Shown piece after piece: positions 29,549-44,261 of a stretch of DNA of 49,425 bases. The stretch lies in NCBI GenBank assembly GCA_013820755.1, contig JACDHZ010000003.1, forward strand, positions 1 through 49,425, in the 5' to 3' direction. This DNA comes from Chthoniobacterales bacterium. GTDB taxonomy: Bacteria; Verrucomicrobiota; Verrucomicrobiia; Chthoniobacterales; UBA10450. Both the position numbers and the translations under genes were made by a program. How positions within the stretch are numbered: the stretch's first letter is position 1; each line of letters opens with the position of its first letter. The notes under the pieces are model-generated. The model made no database searches. It had not been told where the DNA came from and saw nothing but the letters and a program-made list of their open reading frames with translations.

Positions 29549-32500
29549 ATGAAGAAACGTAATCCTGCTGTCGCTCCAATAGAAAACGGCTCCCGATTGA
29601 GCAACGGGGAGCTAGATCAATCCGCGCTGCTTCGCGCGCTTTCCGCCTTCAAGCGAGGGGACTTTAGTGCCCGGCTTCCCGAGCACTGGACCGGTACAGC
29701 CGGCAGGATCGCGGATGTCTTCAACGACGTGATCGGGATGAACCAGCGGATGGCCCGAGAGCTTGATCGGATCGGGAAAGTCGTGGGGAAGGAAGGTCGG
29801 ATCACGCAACGTGCTTCGCTGGGCGATGTGTCCGAATGCTGGGCGGAGGCGATCGGCTCGGTCAACGATCTGATCGGAGATCTGGTACATCCGACAAGTG
29901 AGATGGCGCGCGTGATCGGCGCCGTCGCGAAAGGCGACTTGTCGCAGACGATGGCTACGGACATCGAGGGCCGGCAGCTGCAGGGGGAATTTTTGCGCAC
30001 GGCTAAAACGGTGAACACGATGGTCGATCAGCTCGGCGCATTCGCATCCGAAGTGACGCGCGTGGCTCGCGAGGTCGGCACCGAGGGGAAGCTGGGCGGC
30101 CAGGCGAAGGTTAAGGGCGTGGCGGGTACGTGGAAAGATCTCACCGAGAACGTGAACCTGATGGCGGGTAACCTGACCGCGCAGGTCCGTAACATTGCCA
30201 CCGTGACAACGGCGGTCGCGAATGGCGATTTGACGAAGAAGATTACGGTGGACGTGAAGGGTGAGTTCCTGGAGCTAAAGGACACCGTTAACGTGATGGT
30301 GGATCAGCTCCGCTCGTTCGCCTCGGAAGTGACGCGCGTCGCTCGCGAAGTGGGTTCGGAAGGAATTCTCGGCGGCCAGGCGCGCGTCGAAGGCGTGTCG
30401 GGCACTTGGAAGGATCTCACCGATTCGGTGAATTTCATGGCCCGTAATCTAACGGGTCAGGTCCGCAACATCGCGGAAGTGACCACAGCGGTGGCGACTG
30501 GCGATCTTTCCAAGAAAATCACCGTCGACGTCAAAGGCGAGATCCTTGAGCTGAAGAATACCATCAACACGATGGTCGATCAGCTGAGCTCGTTTGCTTC
30601 TGAAGTAACGCGCGTCGCTCGTGAAGTAGGAACGGAAGGAAAGCTCGGCGGCCAGGCGGATGTGAAGGGTGTCGCCGGCACTTGGAAGGATTTGACCGAC
30701 TCGGTGAACTCGATGGCCGGTAACCTCACGGGTCAGGTGCGTAATATCGCGGAAGTGACGACAGCCGTCGCGAACGGTGACCTGTCTAAGAAGATCACAG
30801 TTGATGTGCGGGGCGAGATTCTCGAGCTGAAAGACACCATCAACACGATGGTGGATCAGCTCCGCGCGTTCGCCTCGGAAGTAACGCGTGTCGCGCGCGA
30901 GGTAGGCTCGGAAGGAAAACTCGGCGGTCAGGCGGACGTGCCCGGCGTCGCCGGCACATGGAAGGATTTGACCGATAATGTGAACATGATGGCCGGTAAC
31001 CTGACGGCCCAGGTGCGTAACATCGCCGAGGTGACGACCGCGATCGCAAGCGGCGACCTCTCGCGCAAGATCACCGTGGATGTCCGCGGCGAGATCCTGG
31101 AGATGAAGAAGACGATCAACACGCTGGTGGATCGGCTCAGCTCGTTTGCCTCGGAAGTGACGCGCGTGGCGCGGGAAGTAGGTTCGGAAGGAATTCTCGG
31201 CGGTCAGGCGGAGGTGCGCGGCGTCTCGGGTACATGGAAGGATTTGACCGATTCGGTGAACTTCATGGCCGGTAACCTGACGGCGCAGGTGCGAAACATT
31301 GCGCTCGTCACAACCGCGGTCGCGAACGGCGACCTTTCCAAGAAGATCACGGTCGATGTGCGAGGCGAAATCGCGGAGCTGAAGAACACCGTCAATACGA
31401 TGGTCGATCAGCTCAGCTCCTTCGCATCGGAAGTAACGCGTGTGGCGCGCGAAGTAGGTTCAGAAGGAATCCTCGGCGGTCAGGCGGAAGTGAAAGGCGT
31501 GGCGGGCACGTGGAAAGATCTCACCGACTCGGTGAACTCGATGGCCGGTAACCTAACGGGCCAGGTCCGTAATATCGCCGACGTAACGACGGCGGTCGCG
31601 CGCGGTGACCTGTCGAAGAAGATCACGGTGGACGTAAAAGGCGAAATCTTGGCGCTGAAGAACACGATCAATACGATGGTCGATCAGCTCAGCTCGTTTG
31701 CCGCGGAGGTAACTCGCGTCGCGCGTGAAGTAGGTACGGAAGGAAAGCTCGGCGGGCAGGCCGATGTACGTGACGTCGCCGGCACTTGGAAGGATTTAAC
31801 CGACTCCGTGAACTTCATGGCGGGGAACTTGACCGGCCAGGTGCGTAACATCGCGGAGGTAACGACTGCAGTCGCGAACGGAGATCTCTCGAAAAAGATC
31901 ACCGTCGATGTCCGCGGAGAAATCCTGGAGTTGAAGAACACCATCAATACGATGGTCGATCAGCTGAGTTCATTCGCGGCGGAGGTGACGCGCGTTGCGC
32001 GCGAGGTCGGATCGGAAGGCCGTCTCGGTGGACAAGCGGAGGTCAAAGGAGTGGCCGGTACGTGGAAAGATCTCACCGACTCAGTGAACTCGATGGCGGG
32101 AAACTTGACAGGCCAGGTGCGTAACATTGCGGAGGTCACAACCGCAGTCGCGAATGGCGACTTGTCCAAGAAGATCACCGTAGACGTCCGCGGAGAAATT
32201 CTACAGCTCAAAGACACGATCAATACGATGGTCGATCAGCTCCGTTCCTTCGCATCGGAAGTAACGCGTGTTGCGCGTGAAGTAGGTTCTGAAGGAAAAC
32301 TCGGCGGCCAGGCAGATGTGCGCGGCGTCGCCGGCACATGGAAGGATCTCACGGACTCCGTTAATTCAATGGCCGGCAATCTTACGGCGCAGGTGCGAAA
32401 CATCGCCGACGTGACGACCGCTGTCGCGCGCGGCGACCTGTCGAAGAAGATCACGGTAGATGTTAAGGGAGAAATCCTTGAGCTGAAGAATACGATCAAC

Positions 32501-35500
32501 ACGATGGTTGATCAGCTCAGCTCGTTCGCGTCGGAAGTAACGCGCGTTGCACGCGAAGTAGGTTCGGAAGGGATTCTCGGTGGCCAGGCAGACGTCGAAG
32601 GCGTCGCCGGCACGTGGAAAGATCTCACGGATTCTGTAAATTCGATGGCCGGTAACCTCACCGGTCAGGTGCGTAACATCGCGGAAGTCACGACAGCCGT
32701 CGCGAACGGTGACCTTTCAAAGAAAATCACAGTAGACGTGCGCGGCGAGATCCTGGAGTTGAAAGACACCATCAACACGATGGTTGATCAGCTCCGGTCG
32801 TTCGCGTCGGAAGTAACGCGCGTCGCGCGCGAAGTGGGTTCGGAGGGAGCCCTCGGCGGTCAGGCGCGAGTCGAAGGCGTTTCCGGCACGTGGAAAGATC
32901 TCACCGACTCGGTGAACTTCATGGCGTCGAATCTTACGACGCAGGTACGTAACATCGCTGCGGTCACGACCGCGGTGGCGACGGGCGATTTGTCGAAGAA
33001 GATCACCGTCGATGTCAAAGGCGAGATCCTTGAGCTGAAGAACACCGTCAATACAATGGTCGATCAGCTGAACTCGTTTGCGTCGGAAGTAACTCGCGTG
33101 GCGCGCGAAGTAGGAACCGAAGGAAAGCTTGGCGGCCAGGCGATCGTTAAGGGCGTCGGGGGCACGTGGAAGGATCTCACCGACTCGGTCAATTTCATGG
33201 CCGGTAACCTCACGAACCAAGTGCGGGGCATCGCGAAGGTGGTGACGGCAGTCGCGAACGGCGACCTGAAGCAGAAGCTGCTCGTCGAAGCCAAAGGCGA
33301 AATCGCGGAGCTCGCCGACACCATCAACAGCATGACCGATACGCTCGCTATTTTCGCCGACCAGACCACCACGGTTGCCCGCGAAGTAGGTGTCGAAGGG
33401 AAGCTGGGCGGCCAGGCGAACGTGCCGGGTGCTGCGGGCACGTGGCGCGATCTGACGGATAACGTTAACCAGCTCGCTGCAAATCTGACCACGCAGCTGC
33501 GCGCAATCGCAGACGTTGCGACGGCAGTGACGAAGGGCGATCTCACGCGATCGATTCAGGTCGATGCCGCGGGCGAAGTTGCTTTCGTAAAGGACAACAT
33601 CAACGAGATGATCCGCAACCTGAAGGACACCACGTTGCGGAACGACGAGCAGGATTGGTTGAAGACCAATCTCGCGAAATTCACCCGCATGCTGCAGGGG
33701 CAGAAGGATCTGCTCACTGTCGGTCGGCTGATTCTGTCCGAGCTCGCGCCTGTCGTATCCGCGCAACAAGGTGTCTTCTACATCATGAACGGCAGCGAGA
33801 CTGACCCTGAGTTGCAGCTCCTGGCGAGCTACGCCTACCGCGAACGTAAAGGAGTGAACAACCGGTTCCGCCTCGGCGAAGGGTTAGTTGGACAGGCTGC
33901 ACTCGAGAAAGAGCGAATCTTGCTGACCAACGTGCCCGACGATTACGTCCGCGTCAGCTCAGGCCTCGGTGAAGCGAAGCCGATGAACATCGTTGTGCTC
34001 CCAATCGTGTTCGAAGGTCAGGTCAAGGCAGTGATGGAACTCTCCTCTCTCGATCGCTTCAATCCGACGCACCAGGCGTTCCTTGATCAGCTTACCGAAA
34101 GCATCGGAATCGTGCTCAACACGATCGAAGCGAATACGCGCACGGAAGACCTGCTAAAGCAGTCGCAGTCGCTTGCGGCCGAGTTGCAAAGCCGACAGCA
34201 GGAACTACAGACGACCAACCAGGAACTCGAAGAAAAAGCACGGCAGTTGTTCGAGCAGAACGCGGAAGTTGAACACAAGAATCGTGAAGTGGAGCAAGCC
34301 CGACAAGCCCTCGAAGGCAAGGCGCAACAGCTTTCCCTCACATCGCGCTACAAGAGCGAGTTTCTCGCGAACATGTCGCACGAGCTGCGGACGCCACTCA
34401 ACAGTTTACTCATCCTCGCGGACCAGCTCTCATCAAATCCGGACGGCAACCTCACGCCGAAGCAGGTCGAGTTTGCACGAACGATCCGCGGCTCCGGCAA
34501 AGACTTGCTGAAGCTGATCAATGATATCCTTGATCTTTCCAAGATCGAGTCCGGAACCGTGTCGATCGACATCGGCGAAGTGCGCTTCGAGGAAATGCGC
34601 CAGACAATGGAGCGCACGTTCCGTCACGTAGCCGAAGGCAAGGGAGTCGACTTCAAAATCGACATCGATCCTGCTCTGCCGGATCAGGTGCGGACCGATG
34701 CACAGCGCCTCGATCAGGTTCTCAAGAACCTGCTTTCCAACGCCTTCAAATTCACTGAACGCGGCTTCGTGAACCTGCGCGTCGACCGGGCGCAGGGTGG
34801 TTGGACATCGGGAAACGGGAATCTTGATCGGGCGCAGACTGTCTTTGCGTTCTCAGTGAGCGACAGTGGTATTGGCATCCCAGCGGACAAGAAGACAACG
34901 ATCTTCGAGGCTTTCCAACAGGCGGACGGCAGCACCAGCCGCAAGTACGGCGGAACTGGTCTCGGGCTCGCGATCAGCCGCGAGCTGGCACGTGTGCTCG
35001 GCGGCGAGATCCGAGTAGAAAGCACCGAAGGGCGGGGAAGCACCTTCACACTGTTCCTGCCGCAGGATTATACCGTGATTCCTACTGAGCGAACGCTCAC
35101 GCCGCCGGTTGTCGAGATGGCGACTGAAGGGGAGCCGATGCGTAATGGCCACGCACTTCAGGCGCCGCTTGACCTGGGACTTGACGACGATCGAAGTAAC
35201 GTCTTACCGGGCGAAAAACTTGTTCTCATTGTGGAGGATGATCGTGATTTTGCGCGATGGCTGTTCGATGTAGCGCATGGAAACGGATTTAAGGCGATTG
35301 TCACTGCGCGCGGGAAGACAGCGCTCGCCCTCGTCCGCGAGTTCATCCCGTCTGCGATCACACTCGACGTCTCGCTGCCGGACATCGACGGCTGGCAAAT
35401 TCTCGACCGCTTAAAATCCGATCTCGCGACCCGTCACATTCCGGTCTTCATCATCTCGGCCAATGAAGAGCCCGAGAATGCGTTGAAACACGGGGCGCTA

Positions 35501-36379
35501 CGGTTCCTCACAAAGCCAATCGATGAAGCGCAGATCATCAGCATCTTCGCGAAGGCGCACGAGATGGCCGACCGGTCTGCCAAGAAGTTGCTTGTGATTG
35601 AAGACAATGAGATGCAGCGGAATAGCATCCGCGAGCTGATCGGCAACGGCACGGCTGATCTAACTGATGCCGCAGACGCTACAGACGCGCTCCAGGCGCT
35701 GAACAATGAGCAATTCGACTGCGTCGTGCTGGATCTAATGCTGCCGGACATGTCCGGCTTCGACTTGATCGACAGGATTCGCCGTGAAAACGAGAATCTC
35801 CCAATCATCGTTTATACAGGAAAGGATCTGTCGCCTGACGAGGAGGAGAAACTAAATCGTATCGCGCAGACCACGATCGTGAAAGATGTGCGGAGTCCGG
35901 AACGCTTGTACGACCAGACGGCGCTTTGGCTGCACCGTGATGCTGCGAAGTTGCCGGCTGACAAACGTGAGTTACTCCGGCGGTTGCACGATCCGGATGC
36001 CATCCTTTCAGGCAAAAAGGTACTTATAGTCGATGACGACATTCGGAATATTTTCGCGATGACGAGCATGCTGGAGCGGTACAAGATGGATGTGGGCTCG
36101 GCTGAAACCGGTAAGGCAGCCGTCGACTTCCTCTCGCACCGACCCGATGTCGATGTGGTTTTGATGGATATCATGCTTCCGGAAATGGACGGCTATGAGA
36201 CGATGCGCACCATCAGGAAGATGTTTGGATTCGAGCAATTGCCGATCATTGCATTGACTGCGAAAGCGATGAAGGGAGATCGCGAAAAGTGCATTGATGC
36301 GGGCGCGAGCGACTACATTTCGAAGCCTGTCGACAGTGATCGCCTGCTCACGTTGCTACGGAACTGGCTTCACCGGTAA
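29549..36379 (+). CDS. Giant soluble poly-HAMP hybrid histidine kinase: 13 x 92-aa HAMP repeat units - GAF - HisKA - HATPase - REC - REC - REC
   Basis: 2276 aa; 13 copies of the [52 protein letters not shown] unit; [32 protein letters not shown]; receivers [41 protein letters not shown]. No TM segment seen. Confidence 0.95.
30050..33637 (+). repeat. In-frame tandem array of 13 units x 276 nt (92 aa) encoding poly-HAMP
   Basis: GTWK/RDLT codons at 30125 (unit 1) and 33437 (unit 13): 3312 nt = 12 x 276 exactly. Units 12-13 are more diverged. Confidence 0.95.
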
Positions 36380-36383
36380 TCGG

Positions 36384-38573
36384 ATGGCGGCGGATTCGAA
36401 TACGGGGCCTGCGGACGAGGAGAAAGTCAGCATCCTGCTGGTTGACGACCGGCCGGATAAGCTCCTCGCTCATGAAGCGATCCTGTCCGATCTCGGGGAG
36501 AACCTCGTGCGCGCGAACTCCGGGGCTGAGGCATTACGCCGGCTGTTGCAGCAAGACTTCGCCGTCATCCTGCTGGACGTGAACATGCCGTTGATGGATG
36601 GATTTGAGACCGCGGCACTCATTCGGCAGCGGCCACGATCTGAGACGACGCCGATTATCTTCATCAGCGCCGTTAACGACACCGAAAATCATGTGTCCCG
36701 TGGTTACTCGTTAGGTGCGGTTGACTATATCCTCACGCCCGTGGTGCCAGAGATCCTGCGCGCCAAAATTGCCGTGTTCGTTGATCTATACCGGAAGACG
36801 GAGCAGGTGAAACGCCAGGCCGAGGAGCGTGCCCAATTCATTCGTGAGCAAGCCGCGCGTGCGGACGCGGAAGCGGCGCAGCAGCGCCTCGCGTTTCTTG
36901 CGGACGCCAGCAATGTGCTCGCGGGCTCACTCGACTATGCAGAGACGTTTCAAAATCTTGCGCGACTGACGGTGCCGCAGCTAGCTGACTTTTGTATCAT
37001 CGACGTTGCCGAGGAGGGGGAGACGTTAAGACGAGTCGCCGTTGCACATCGTGATTCGGAACAACAGGCAAAACTTGCCGTGTTGAGGGATCATTATCAA
37101 ACCGCGCCCGCCGCACGTCATGATGGCACGCGTGTGTTTCAGACTGGTCGTGCTGAGTTCGGCGAAATAGACGAAGCCACGCTCAGCGCGCTTTTTGAGG
37201 ACGAAGAGACTCGGGAATGCGTGCGGAGCCTCGGCGCACGATGTTACGTCGCCGTGCCACTGCTCACGCGAGGGCGAGTGTTTGGCTCGATTACTCTCAT
37301 GAATGTCGACCCGGCGCGCAGGTGCGGTTTTAGCGAGATGGCACTTGCAGAAGAACTCGCGCAACGCGCCGCGCTCGCACTGGACAACGCCGGATTGTAT
37401 CAGGCAGCGCAAAAAGCACGTATGGAAGCCGAGCGTGCTAATCTAGCGAAGGACCGATTCCTCGCGATGTTGAGCCACGAACTGCGAACGCCGCTTACGC
37501 CGATTCTCAGTTCCGCGATGGTGCTGGAAGATGAAGAAGACCTGCGCCCGGAAGTGCGCTCTTCCTTGCAAATGATCCGGCGCAATGTGGAGCTCGAGGC
37601 ACGGTTGATCGATGATTTGCTAGACCTGACACGCATCAGCAAAGGACTGGTCCAGCTGAGCCGCGAGGTCGTGGATGTCCATCAGCTGCTGAACAACGCG
37701 CTTGATATCTGTCGCAGTGATCTCGATGCGAAGCACATTGCGCTCACGCTCCGGCTCAATGCGGAGACCGTCGGATTGAACGCGGATCCTGCGCGGCTAC
37801 AGCAGATATTTTGGAACCTGGTGAAGAATGCGATCAAGTTCACGCCGGACGGCGGAAAGATTACAGTCAGCTCGTGGAATGACGATGCCGGGAATTTATG
37901 GTTCGAAGTTGAAGACACGGGATTAGGTATCGACGCGGAGGCGCTTCCGAAGATCTTCAACGCGTTTGAACAGGGGGAGCGGGCACACCTCGGCGGACTC
38001 GGTCTTGGCCTCGCGATCACGAAGGCATTAGTCGAGACCCACCAAGGCACGATCACGGCGGAAAGTGAAGGAACGCACGAAGGCGCCCGCTTCCGGGTGA
38101 TGCTACCGACTCCGGTCCGGGATCCGGGAGACAGCGCGGAGGCGAAAACCGCACCCGCCGCTGAACGGCACTCCCTGCGGATTCTGCTCGTCGAAGACCA
38201 CGAGGATACGAACCGATCTCTCACTGCATTGTTACGTCGCCGCGGCTACGAGGTTTCGCCCGCGAACAGCGTTCGGTCCGCGCTCCATCTCGCCACGAAC
38301 GCCCATTTCGATGTGCTGGTGAGTGACATCGGGCTGCCAGACGGATCCGGCATTGAACTCATGCAGGCCCTCGATTCTAACCGACCTTCCTTCGGCATTG
38401 CATTGACAGGATTCGGTATGGAGGAGGACGTTCTGAAGACACGGAATGTCGGATTCAACCACCACCTCGTGAAGCCGGTCGATTTGAACAAACTCGACGC
38501 TCTGATTCAGCGTGGTGCGGAGGCGCGGTCCGCTGCTAACGAGCCGCCGCTCGCCCGCATCGCGGCAGGATAA
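36384..38573 (+). CDS. Second hybrid histidine kinase: REC - GAF - HisKA - HATPase - REC
   Basis: VSILLVDDRPDKLLAHEAIL...ILLDVNMPLMDGFE; GAF-like middle; [35 protein letters not shown]-terminal ILLVEDHEDTNRSL...VSDIGLPDGSG. Start trimmed to ATG at 36384, 4 nt after upstream stop. Confidence 0.92.
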   Translation: MAADSNTGPADEEKVSILLVDDRPDKLLAHEAILSDLGENLVRANSGAEALRRLLQQDFAVILLDVNMPLMDGFETAALIRQRPRSETTPIIFISAVNDTENHVSRGYSLGAVDYILTPVVPEILRAKIAVFVDLYRKTEQVKRQAEERAQFIREQAARADAEAAQQRLAFLADASNVLAGSLDYAETFQNLARLTVPQLADFCIIDVAEEGETLRRVAVAHRDSEQQAKLAVLRDHYQTAPAARHDGTRVFQTGRAEFGEIDEATLSALFEDEETRECVRSLGARCYVAVPLLTRGRVFGSITLMNVDPARRCGFSEMALAEELAQRAALALDNAGLYQAAQKARMEAERANLAKDRFLAMLSHELRTPLTPILSSAMVLEDEEDLRPEVRSSLQMIRRNVELEARLIDDLLDLTRISKGLVQLSREVVDVHQLLNNALDICRSDLDAKHIALTLRLNAETVGLNADPARLQQIFWNLVKNAIKFTPDGGKITVSSWNDDAGNLWFEVEDTGLGIDAEALPKIFNAFEQGERAHLGGLGLGLAITKALVETHQGTITAESEGTHEGARFRVMLPTPVRDPGDSAEAKTAPAAERHSLRILLVEDHEDTNRSLTALLRRRGYEVSPANSVRSALHLATNAHFDVLVSDIGLPDGSGIELMQALDSNRPSFGIALTGFGMEEDVLKTRNVGFNHHLVKPVDLNKLDALIQRGAEARSAANEPPLARIAAG

Positions 38574-42340: not shown

Positions 42341-43765
42341 TCACACGTCGAAGTACATCGCGAACTCGTATGGGTGAGGCCGGAGTCGCAAAGTGTCGTA
42401 TTCTTTCTGCTTCATATCGATCCAGTTGGAGACGAAATCGCTGTTGAACACGTCGCCTTTCAGCAGGAAGGAATGGTCCGCCTCCAGTGCCTTGATCGCG
42501 CCGCCTAACGAATCTGGGACGCTCGGCACCTGCGCGAGTTCTTCCGGCGGAAGTTCGTACAAGTTTTTGTCAAGCGGATCGCCGGGATCAATGCGGTTCT
42601 GGATTCCATCGAGACCCGCGAGCAGCAGCGCGGAGAAAGCAAGATACGGATTGGCAGCTGGATCCGGAGTCCGGAACTCTACGCGCTTCGATTTAGGGTT
42701 CGCGGAGTACGTGGGAATGCGGATCGATGCGGAACGATTACGCGCGGAATAGGCGAGATTTACGGGCGCTTCAAAGCCGGGCACGAGGCGCTTGTAGCTG
42801 TTGGTGGTCGGATTGGTGATGCAGGTGAGCGCCGGCGCGTGGCGCAGGATTCCACCGATGAAGAACAACGCCATCTCGCTGAGGCCGGCGTAGCCATTGC
42901 CGGCGAACAGCGGTTTGCCTTCTTTCCACAGGGACATGTGCGTGTGCATGCCGGAACCGTTGTCTCCGAAGAGCGGCTTGGGCATGAACGTGACCGTCTT
43001 GCCGTGCTTCTTCGCGACGTTCCGCACGATGTATTTGTAGTACTGCATGTAGTCGCCCATCTGCTTCATCGGCGCGAAGCGGATGTCGATCTCCGCCTGC
43101 CCGGCGCTTGCGACTTCATGATGCTGTCGCTCGATCGGGATGCCCGCTTTCTCGAGTTCGAGGCACATCTCGTTGCGAATGTCCTGCTGCGTGTCGGCTG
43201 GCGAGACGGGGAAATAACCTTCCTTCGCCCGGATTTTATATCCAAGGTTCGGGAACTCCTCCTTGCCGCTGTTCCAGTGCCCTTCCGCGCTGTCCACTAC
43301 GTGGAAAGAAGAGTTCGGCGAATAGTTGAACCGGACTTCATCGAAGATAAAAAATTCAGCCTCGGGCCCGAAGAATGCCGTGTCGGCGATCCCCGTGCTC
43401 TGCAAATAGGCCTCCGCTTTCTCCGCGACGCCGCGCGGGTCGCGGTCGTATGGCTCGCGCGTGATCGGGTCGACGATCGTGCAGATCAAACTGAGCGTCG
43501 GTTCGGAATTGAACACGTCGATCCATGCAGTAGTCGCATCGGGAATGACGAGCATGTCGCTCGCGTTGATTGCACGCCAGCCCCGGATGCTCGAGCCGTC
43601 GAAACCAAGCCCCTCCGTGAAAATATCCTCGTTGTACTCAGTGAGCGTTGTCGTAAAATGCTGCCAGCTCCCGGGCAGGTCGGTGAACTTAAAATCGACG
43701 AGTCTGACCTCGCGATCCTTGATGAGTTTCGTGACGTCTGTTGGGCTTTTGATCTCTTTAGGCAT
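42341..43765 (-). CDS. glnA: Type I glutamine synthetase
   Basis: [74 protein letters not shown], adenylylation-type [10 protein letters not shown]. Confidence 0.97.

Positions 43766-43916: not shown

Positions 43917-44261
<345 letters not shown>

Follow-up and report, generated by a model that had tools for sequence, protein, structure and literature searches.

A soluble poly-HAMP hybrid kinase of Chthoniobacterales, its adjacent partner kinase and a natural fusion of the two

The window analysed here, a stretch of 49,425 nucleotides from a Chthoniobacterales bacterium (assembly GCA_013820755.1, contig JACDHZ010000003.1, positions 1 to 49,425 of the forward strand), encodes a soluble hybrid histidine kinase with 28 HAMP modules and, directly downstream, a second hybrid kinase headed by a receiver (REC) domain. 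Across phyla the two genes are conserved as a pair, and a clade of six relatives carries the two proteins fused. Together the genes probably make up a cytosolic two-gene system for signalling, of the AskA/B-AskC (bacterial poly-HAMP) kind. We lean slightly towards a reading in which the array would be a portable control rod with the AskC-like partner kinase as its true target. A single in-frame fusion would then have cut out the kinase and the three receivers of the array protein and linked the rod directly to the kinase of the partner, a natural experiment on which parts are dispensable. The features of the locus are as follows, all on the + strand.

29549..36379, +: poly-HAMP hybrid histidine kinase, 2276 aa, soluble (ORF and translation, Pfam, relatives)
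29612..30040, +: N-terminal cap, aa 22-164, in which aa 69-163 form a degenerate HAMP A+B pair and one more half module is probable (own A/B profiles, phmmer against PDB)
30041..33628, +: 13 in-register 92-aa units, aa 165-1360, each a HAMP-A plus HAMP-B pair, units 12-13 divergent (Tandem Repeats Finder, unit register, own A/B profiles)
33704..34117, +: GAF domain, aa 1386-1523 (Pfam GAF_2, 6e-19; AF2 model matches GAF structures by Foldseek)
34064..34351, +: long signalling helix from GAF to HisKA, aa 1506-1601, in which the fusion junction of relatives falls near aa 1563 (AF2 model, junction alignment)
34352..34555, +: HisKA with intact SHELRTPL phospho-acceptor motif, aa 1610-1617 (Pfam, motif)
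34697..35065, +: HATPase_c with intact N, G1 and G2 boxes (Pfam, motifs)
35222..35560, +: receiver 1, phospho-acceptor Asp present (Pfam, motif)
35588..35923, +: receiver 2, phospho-acceptor Asp present (Pfam, motif)
36020..36358, +: receiver 3, phospho-acceptor Asp present (Pfam, motif)
36384..38573, +: partner P0002, an AskC-like REC-GAF-HisKA-HATPase-REC hybrid kinase (Pfam; adjacency in relatives)

The poly-HAMP reading frame begins with an ATG, is open throughout and has an in-frame stop three codons 5' of the start. A preliminary description of this DNA, made from its letters, had read 13 units at an exact 276-nt period, no transmembrane segment and a GAF-HisKA-HATPase-3xREC order after the array, and all three readings hold. 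Tandem Repeats Finder places a repeat of period 276 at 30014-33268 (11.8 copies, 0% indels), and the 92-aa register comprises 13 units over aa 165-1360. No transmembrane segment was found in the 2276-aa protein, its best 19-residue hydropathy being 1.42 at aa 1481 within the GAF domain, and the 13 units contain no Cys. Units 1-11 share 79-95% protein identity, with unit 12 at about 73% and unit 13 at about 58%; at the DNA level units 1-11 are 70-84% identical. Because mean dN among units 1-11 is 0.094 against a median dS of 1.18, with dN/dS between array units of about 0.08, the units are old and kept alike by selection on the protein. Since no exact repeat inside the array is longer than 34 bp, a short-read assembler is unlikely to have collapsed or expanded the unit count, and the identical count of 13 units in the same-genus genome G003 completes the grounds on which an assembly artefact was ruled out. 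Genome G001 carries at least 14 units, the contig start cutting the gene.

Pfam assigned 14 stretches each of HAMP and HAMP_2 to the protein, along with GAF_2, HisKA, HATPase_c and three Response_reg domains. Our own profiles, one for the first half (A) and one for the second half (B) of the units in relatives, found 14 A modules and 14 B modules that alternate strictly. Both results agree with the proposal that the 92-aa unit is a HAMP pair as in fungal Nik1, and on these profile matches each unit is best described as a pair of HAMP modules. The earlier estimate of about 26 stacked modules was right as to the stacked pairs but low in number: the count is 28, as a degenerate A+B pair precedes unit 1. 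A 29th module, discerned by eye only, possibly lies at aa 22-68. A and B halves share the signature G-x-L ... V ... G ... L ... N-x-M ... L, and the connector is about four residues longer in the A half than in the B half. Direct alignment of the A and B profiles is weak, so the HAMP identity of the A half rests mainly on Pfam HAMP_2. Structure prediction for three units, which had been suggested as a check, returned the expected helix and connector alternation but at low confidence: the AF2 monomer of units 1-3 has a mean pLDDT of 47.5 and was used for its pattern of roughly 30-residue helices and connectors only. Because this monomer model is poor, the rod geometry discussed below rests on knowledge of the HAMP family and on the existence of PDB entries 9trj and 9trk ("histidine kinase, Gcn4p"), which align with aa 18-209 and 18-301 at E-values down to 1e-120 (phmmer).

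Beyond the array, an AF2 model running from the last two units through HisKA (mean pLDDT 71.7) shows an ordinary GAF domain followed by one helix of 123 residues that leads into HisKA. The catalytic motifs of the poly-HAMP kinase are intact, as are the Asp motifs of all three receivers.

The more informative part of the locus, overlooked in the preliminary description, is the adjacent partner kinase, whose gene starts 4 bp past the stop of the poly-HAMP gene. Among 83 testable loci of relatives, a REC-headed ORF is directly adjacent in 59 and lies within 6.5 kb in 73, while the other 10 have no REC-headed partner nearby. Across partners it is the N-terminal REC that is conserved, and the remainder varies, with HisKA, HWE or HisKA_3 kinases and PAS or GAF domains. 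In P0002 this receiver (aa 47-159) has a T in place of the usual receiver Lys (GAVDYILTPV). Because this Lys is absent here and from about 60% of the adjacent partners read, being kept in the others, docking on the N-terminal REC of the partner may replace classical phosphotransfer.

A variant operon of the order poly-HAMP kinase, CheR, CheB, REC-HK occurs in cyanobacteria, in one Acidobacteria bin and in one Gemmatimonadota bin, at these positions:

L025:10985-14882, CheR-CheB operon variant
L033:14872-16339, CheR-CheB operon variant (CheR by BLAST, CheB by Pfam only)
L040:9764-14255, CheR-CheB operon variant
L065:13860-17584, CheR-CheB operon variant
L079:13224-16035, CheR-CheB operon variant

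A methyltransferase and methylesterase pair beside a kinase, rather than a chemoreceptor, suggests that the rod could undergo methylation-type adaptation. Other neighbourhoods differ again. In Rhizobium ruizarguesonis, treZ and malQ come after the poly-HAMP pair on pRL12 (L102:16734-20386), a possible link to osmoprotection, and a Bosea relative lies near an amylo-glucosidase gene; directly beside the pair in the window, no trehalose genes were found. Further along the window, a P-II nitrogen regulator (43917-44255, - strand) adjoins glutamine synthetase (42341-43765, - strand), an ordinary glnB-glnA pair.

Six relatives within the window's own family carry the array and GAF joined in frame to the HisKA-HATPase-REC part of the partner.

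Loci L005, L010, L011, L012, L014 and L108-L113: fused genes, in genomes G008, G009, G010, G012, G017 and G021

In all six, the full-strength match to the window protein ends or breaks near aa 1566. Kinship of the fused kinase parts with the partner kinase rests on BLAST identities to P0002, which reach 55-60% over HK-REC in L005 and L011 and 64% over shorter pieces in L014 and L010. The fused genes lack the array's own kinase, its receivers, and the partner's REC-GAF. Their junction exists in two versions that differ by exactly seven residues, which is one heptad. The five complete fused genes have 6, 8, 8, 9 and 13 units, and the fused protein of G021 contains its 6 units within 1291 aa. The partner's REC-GAF is present in 7/7 two-gene genomes and in 0/6 fused ones; as the latter are draft bins (83-96% complete), absence from one genome is not proof and it is the 7/7 versus 0/6 pattern that carries weight.

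The simplest reading of these gene structures would be a single deletion that removed the HisKA-HATPase-3xREC of the array protein together with the REC-GAF of the partner. All fused genes fall into a single clade next to the two-gene ones (SH-aLRT 95), which points to a single origin of the fusion within the window's family. The fusion implies a common pathway for rod and partner kinase and a helix of the rod that is able to drive the kinase core of the partner. It is the best functional evidence at hand that the rod can drive the partner kinase. Gene pair and natural fusion together also provide, in the fused protein of G021, a short testable construct that makes do with rod, GAF and a single kinase.

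Some antifungals require poly-HAMP kinases in order to act on fungi, and in myxobacteria such kinases control development. For the system described here, the array would form a rod, a parallel dimeric coiled coil with a length of very roughly 60-75 nm if each HAMP adds about 2.5 nm, along which the two HAMP types would pass alternating conformational states, as has been proposed for the poly-HAMP chain of Aer2 (PMC3570549). The GAF domain, proteins bound to the rod, or both, would supply or gate the signal, which would then travel through the long helix to the kinase core. From there the receivers could either transfer phosphoryl groups to the partner kinase or signal to it by docking, and the partner would integrate this incoming signal with its own GAF.

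The preliminary description regarded a 13-unit array as exceptional in a bacterium, which the survey of repeat number that it had suggested does not bear out. A scan of GTDB genomes gave at least 587 confirmed relatives, and the best 80 of these come from Verrucomicrobiota, Cyanobacteriota, Pseudomonadota, Bacteroidota, Acidobacteriota, Myxococcota, Bacillota, Gemmatimonadota, Planctomycetota, Fibrobacterota and an Actinomycetota-labelled bin. Among the matches listed, the nearest named relative of the window gene is a Chthoniobacterales bin; relatives on Rhizobium and Bosea plasmids, at 70% identity, are annotated merely as "HAMP domain-containing protein". As the list of the best 80 loci is biased to high-scoring, long relatives, evenly drawn genome samples were used as well. 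Clear members were found there in 9/289 Verrucomicrobiota, 19/244 cyanobacteria and 15/289 genomes of the Bradyrhizobium class, and in about 88/193 Myxococcota, many of which have two paralogues. In 85 near-complete genes, a set weighted towards high-scoring relatives, the unit counts were 9 (13 genes), 10 (3), 11 (43), 12 (12), 13 (7), 14 (6) and 16 (1). Because typical counts are 9-14, and up to 16, across about ten phyla, 13 units are ordinary in a family that is patchy but broad. One 2876-aa relative (L103, genome G928) has 9 motif-detected units and so carries extra sequence.

Across the roughly 95 loci read, the spacing between units is 92 aa in 937/941 gaps; the other four are 184 aa, each with one unit missed by the motif. 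The length of the HAMP pair is thus invariant across bacterial phyla and the unit number is free: in the window's own family alone, complete genes have 6 to 13 units and one 5'-cut gene has at least 14. Because the register is constant while the unit number varies, the rod would be a repeatable relay or scaffold that does not depend on one exact length.

How the units themselves evolve bears on this interpretation. Within a genus, each unit mostly matches the unit at the same position in the relative, with a mean identity for L001/L002 of 0.96, against 0.81 off-diagonal. Between phyla, a unit tree of 92 columns with few resolved forks shows inner units tending to cluster with those of their own protein, and the last two, kinase-proximal units grouping with the last two of other phyla as positional orthologues. 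Because inner units cluster by protein and the last two by position, the pattern fits a slow turnover of inner units in a fixed register combined with a position-specific constraint beside the GAF domain. Perhaps, instead, unit number reflects neutral copy-number drift, in which function depends on the terminal modules alone and the inner units serve as a spacer homogenised by recombination. This alternative, which we hold as tentative and rather unlikely, would account for the range of 6 to at least 14 units in one family, for the clustering of inner units by protein between phyla and for the published change of poly-HAMP tract length in AskB orthologues (PMC4603909), but it is at odds with the positional identity kept within a genus, with the low dN/dS between units and with zero register slips in 941 intervals.

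The other two alternatives concern what the array binds. The array might itself be the receptor, as was first suggested for fungal Nik1, and sense ambruticin- or fludioxonil-like ligands or osmotic strength directly. The shared 92-aa HAMP pairs and the altered drug and osmotic response of fungal group III kinases upon HAMP deletions (PMC3848655) are in line with this, as are the neighbours of the Rhizobium (treZ/malQ) and Bosea (amylo-glucosidase) relatives, but the absence of trehalose genes directly beside the window pair is not. In the one bacterial system tested, AskA and AskB showed no ambruticin binding and AskC bound it weakly, at about 300 uM (PMC7643160). Fludioxonil was reported to act indirectly via triosephosphate isomerase and methylglyoxal, involving Cys392 in a HAMP domain of Drk1 (PMC6433957), which disfavours it as a direct ligand, and the 13 units of the window are free of Cys. 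A direct sensor is thus improbable, and the idea of trying fungicide-type chemistry here, raised in the preliminary description, is weak as stated. Less probable still, and in our view very unlikely, is a nucleoid- or promoter-bound scaffold in which HTH-like elements, of the sort proposed for AskA/AskB, would attach the array to DNA and let the kinase signal at promoters. AskB did bind the mrpC promoter in vitro (PMC7643160), and Pfam HTH_6 scores on the window array with an E-value of 9.7e-5. However, zero single HTH_6 stretches pass, the score being the sum of weak matches over near-identical copies; these matches sit inside segments claimed far more strongly by HAMP models, and the unrelated Syntaxin_2, Laminin_II and GatB_Yqey score on the array likewise. 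An HTH reading of the array was rejected on this basis, and the repeat artefact seen at 30041-33628 of the window may also lie behind the HTH elements described for AskA/AskB.

The preferred reading, a rod that acts with its partner kinase, can be set against systems already described. Fungal group III kinases have a single C-terminal receiver and are not known to carry a GAF. With about 5-6 repeats they differ from the window protein, which has 13 units, a GAF domain, three receivers and a partner kinase gene. They (CaNik1, Os-1, DhNik1, TcsC, Drk1) nevertheless resemble it in being hybrid kinases with 92-aa HAMP pairs and no transmembrane segment (PMC3848655). Aer2 of Pseudomonas aeruginosa (PDB 3LNR) likewise has a concatenated soluble HAMP chain with alternating conformers (PMC3570549). 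Aer2, however, combines five HAMPs with a heme PAS and a chemoreceptor output, whereas the output of the window protein is a kinase; neither an MCP signalling domain nor a heme PAS was among its 25 best Pfam families, and other domains cover the whole ORF. PDB 9trj and 9trk contain pieces of a relative joined to a Gcn4 zipper, as opposed to the full-length protein considered here.

The closest likeness is to AskA (MXAN_0712), AskB (MXAN_6735) and AskC (MXAN_6734) of Myxococcus xanthus and to Amb07 of Sorangium, which share the soluble poly-HAMP array, one kinase core and several receivers (PMC7643160); AskA and AskB are the studied examples of the kind. In Myxococcus, the hybrid kinase gene askC sits directly downstream of askB, both array proteins (AskA and AskB) bind AskC, and Rec3 of AskA contacts the receiver of AskC (PMC7643160). 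The window locus shares this askB-askC arrangement, with an adjacent AskC-like REC-headed hybrid kinase downstream. A Myxococcus relative (L038) has 14 units and a REC-PAS-HK downstream, so that its partner carries a PAS where that of the window carries a GAF, and the window genome has one array kinase as compared with two in many Myxococcota. The system is thus of a kind already known and widespread, of which the window gene is an ordinary member, and it is the partner gene and the fused relatives that are worth following.
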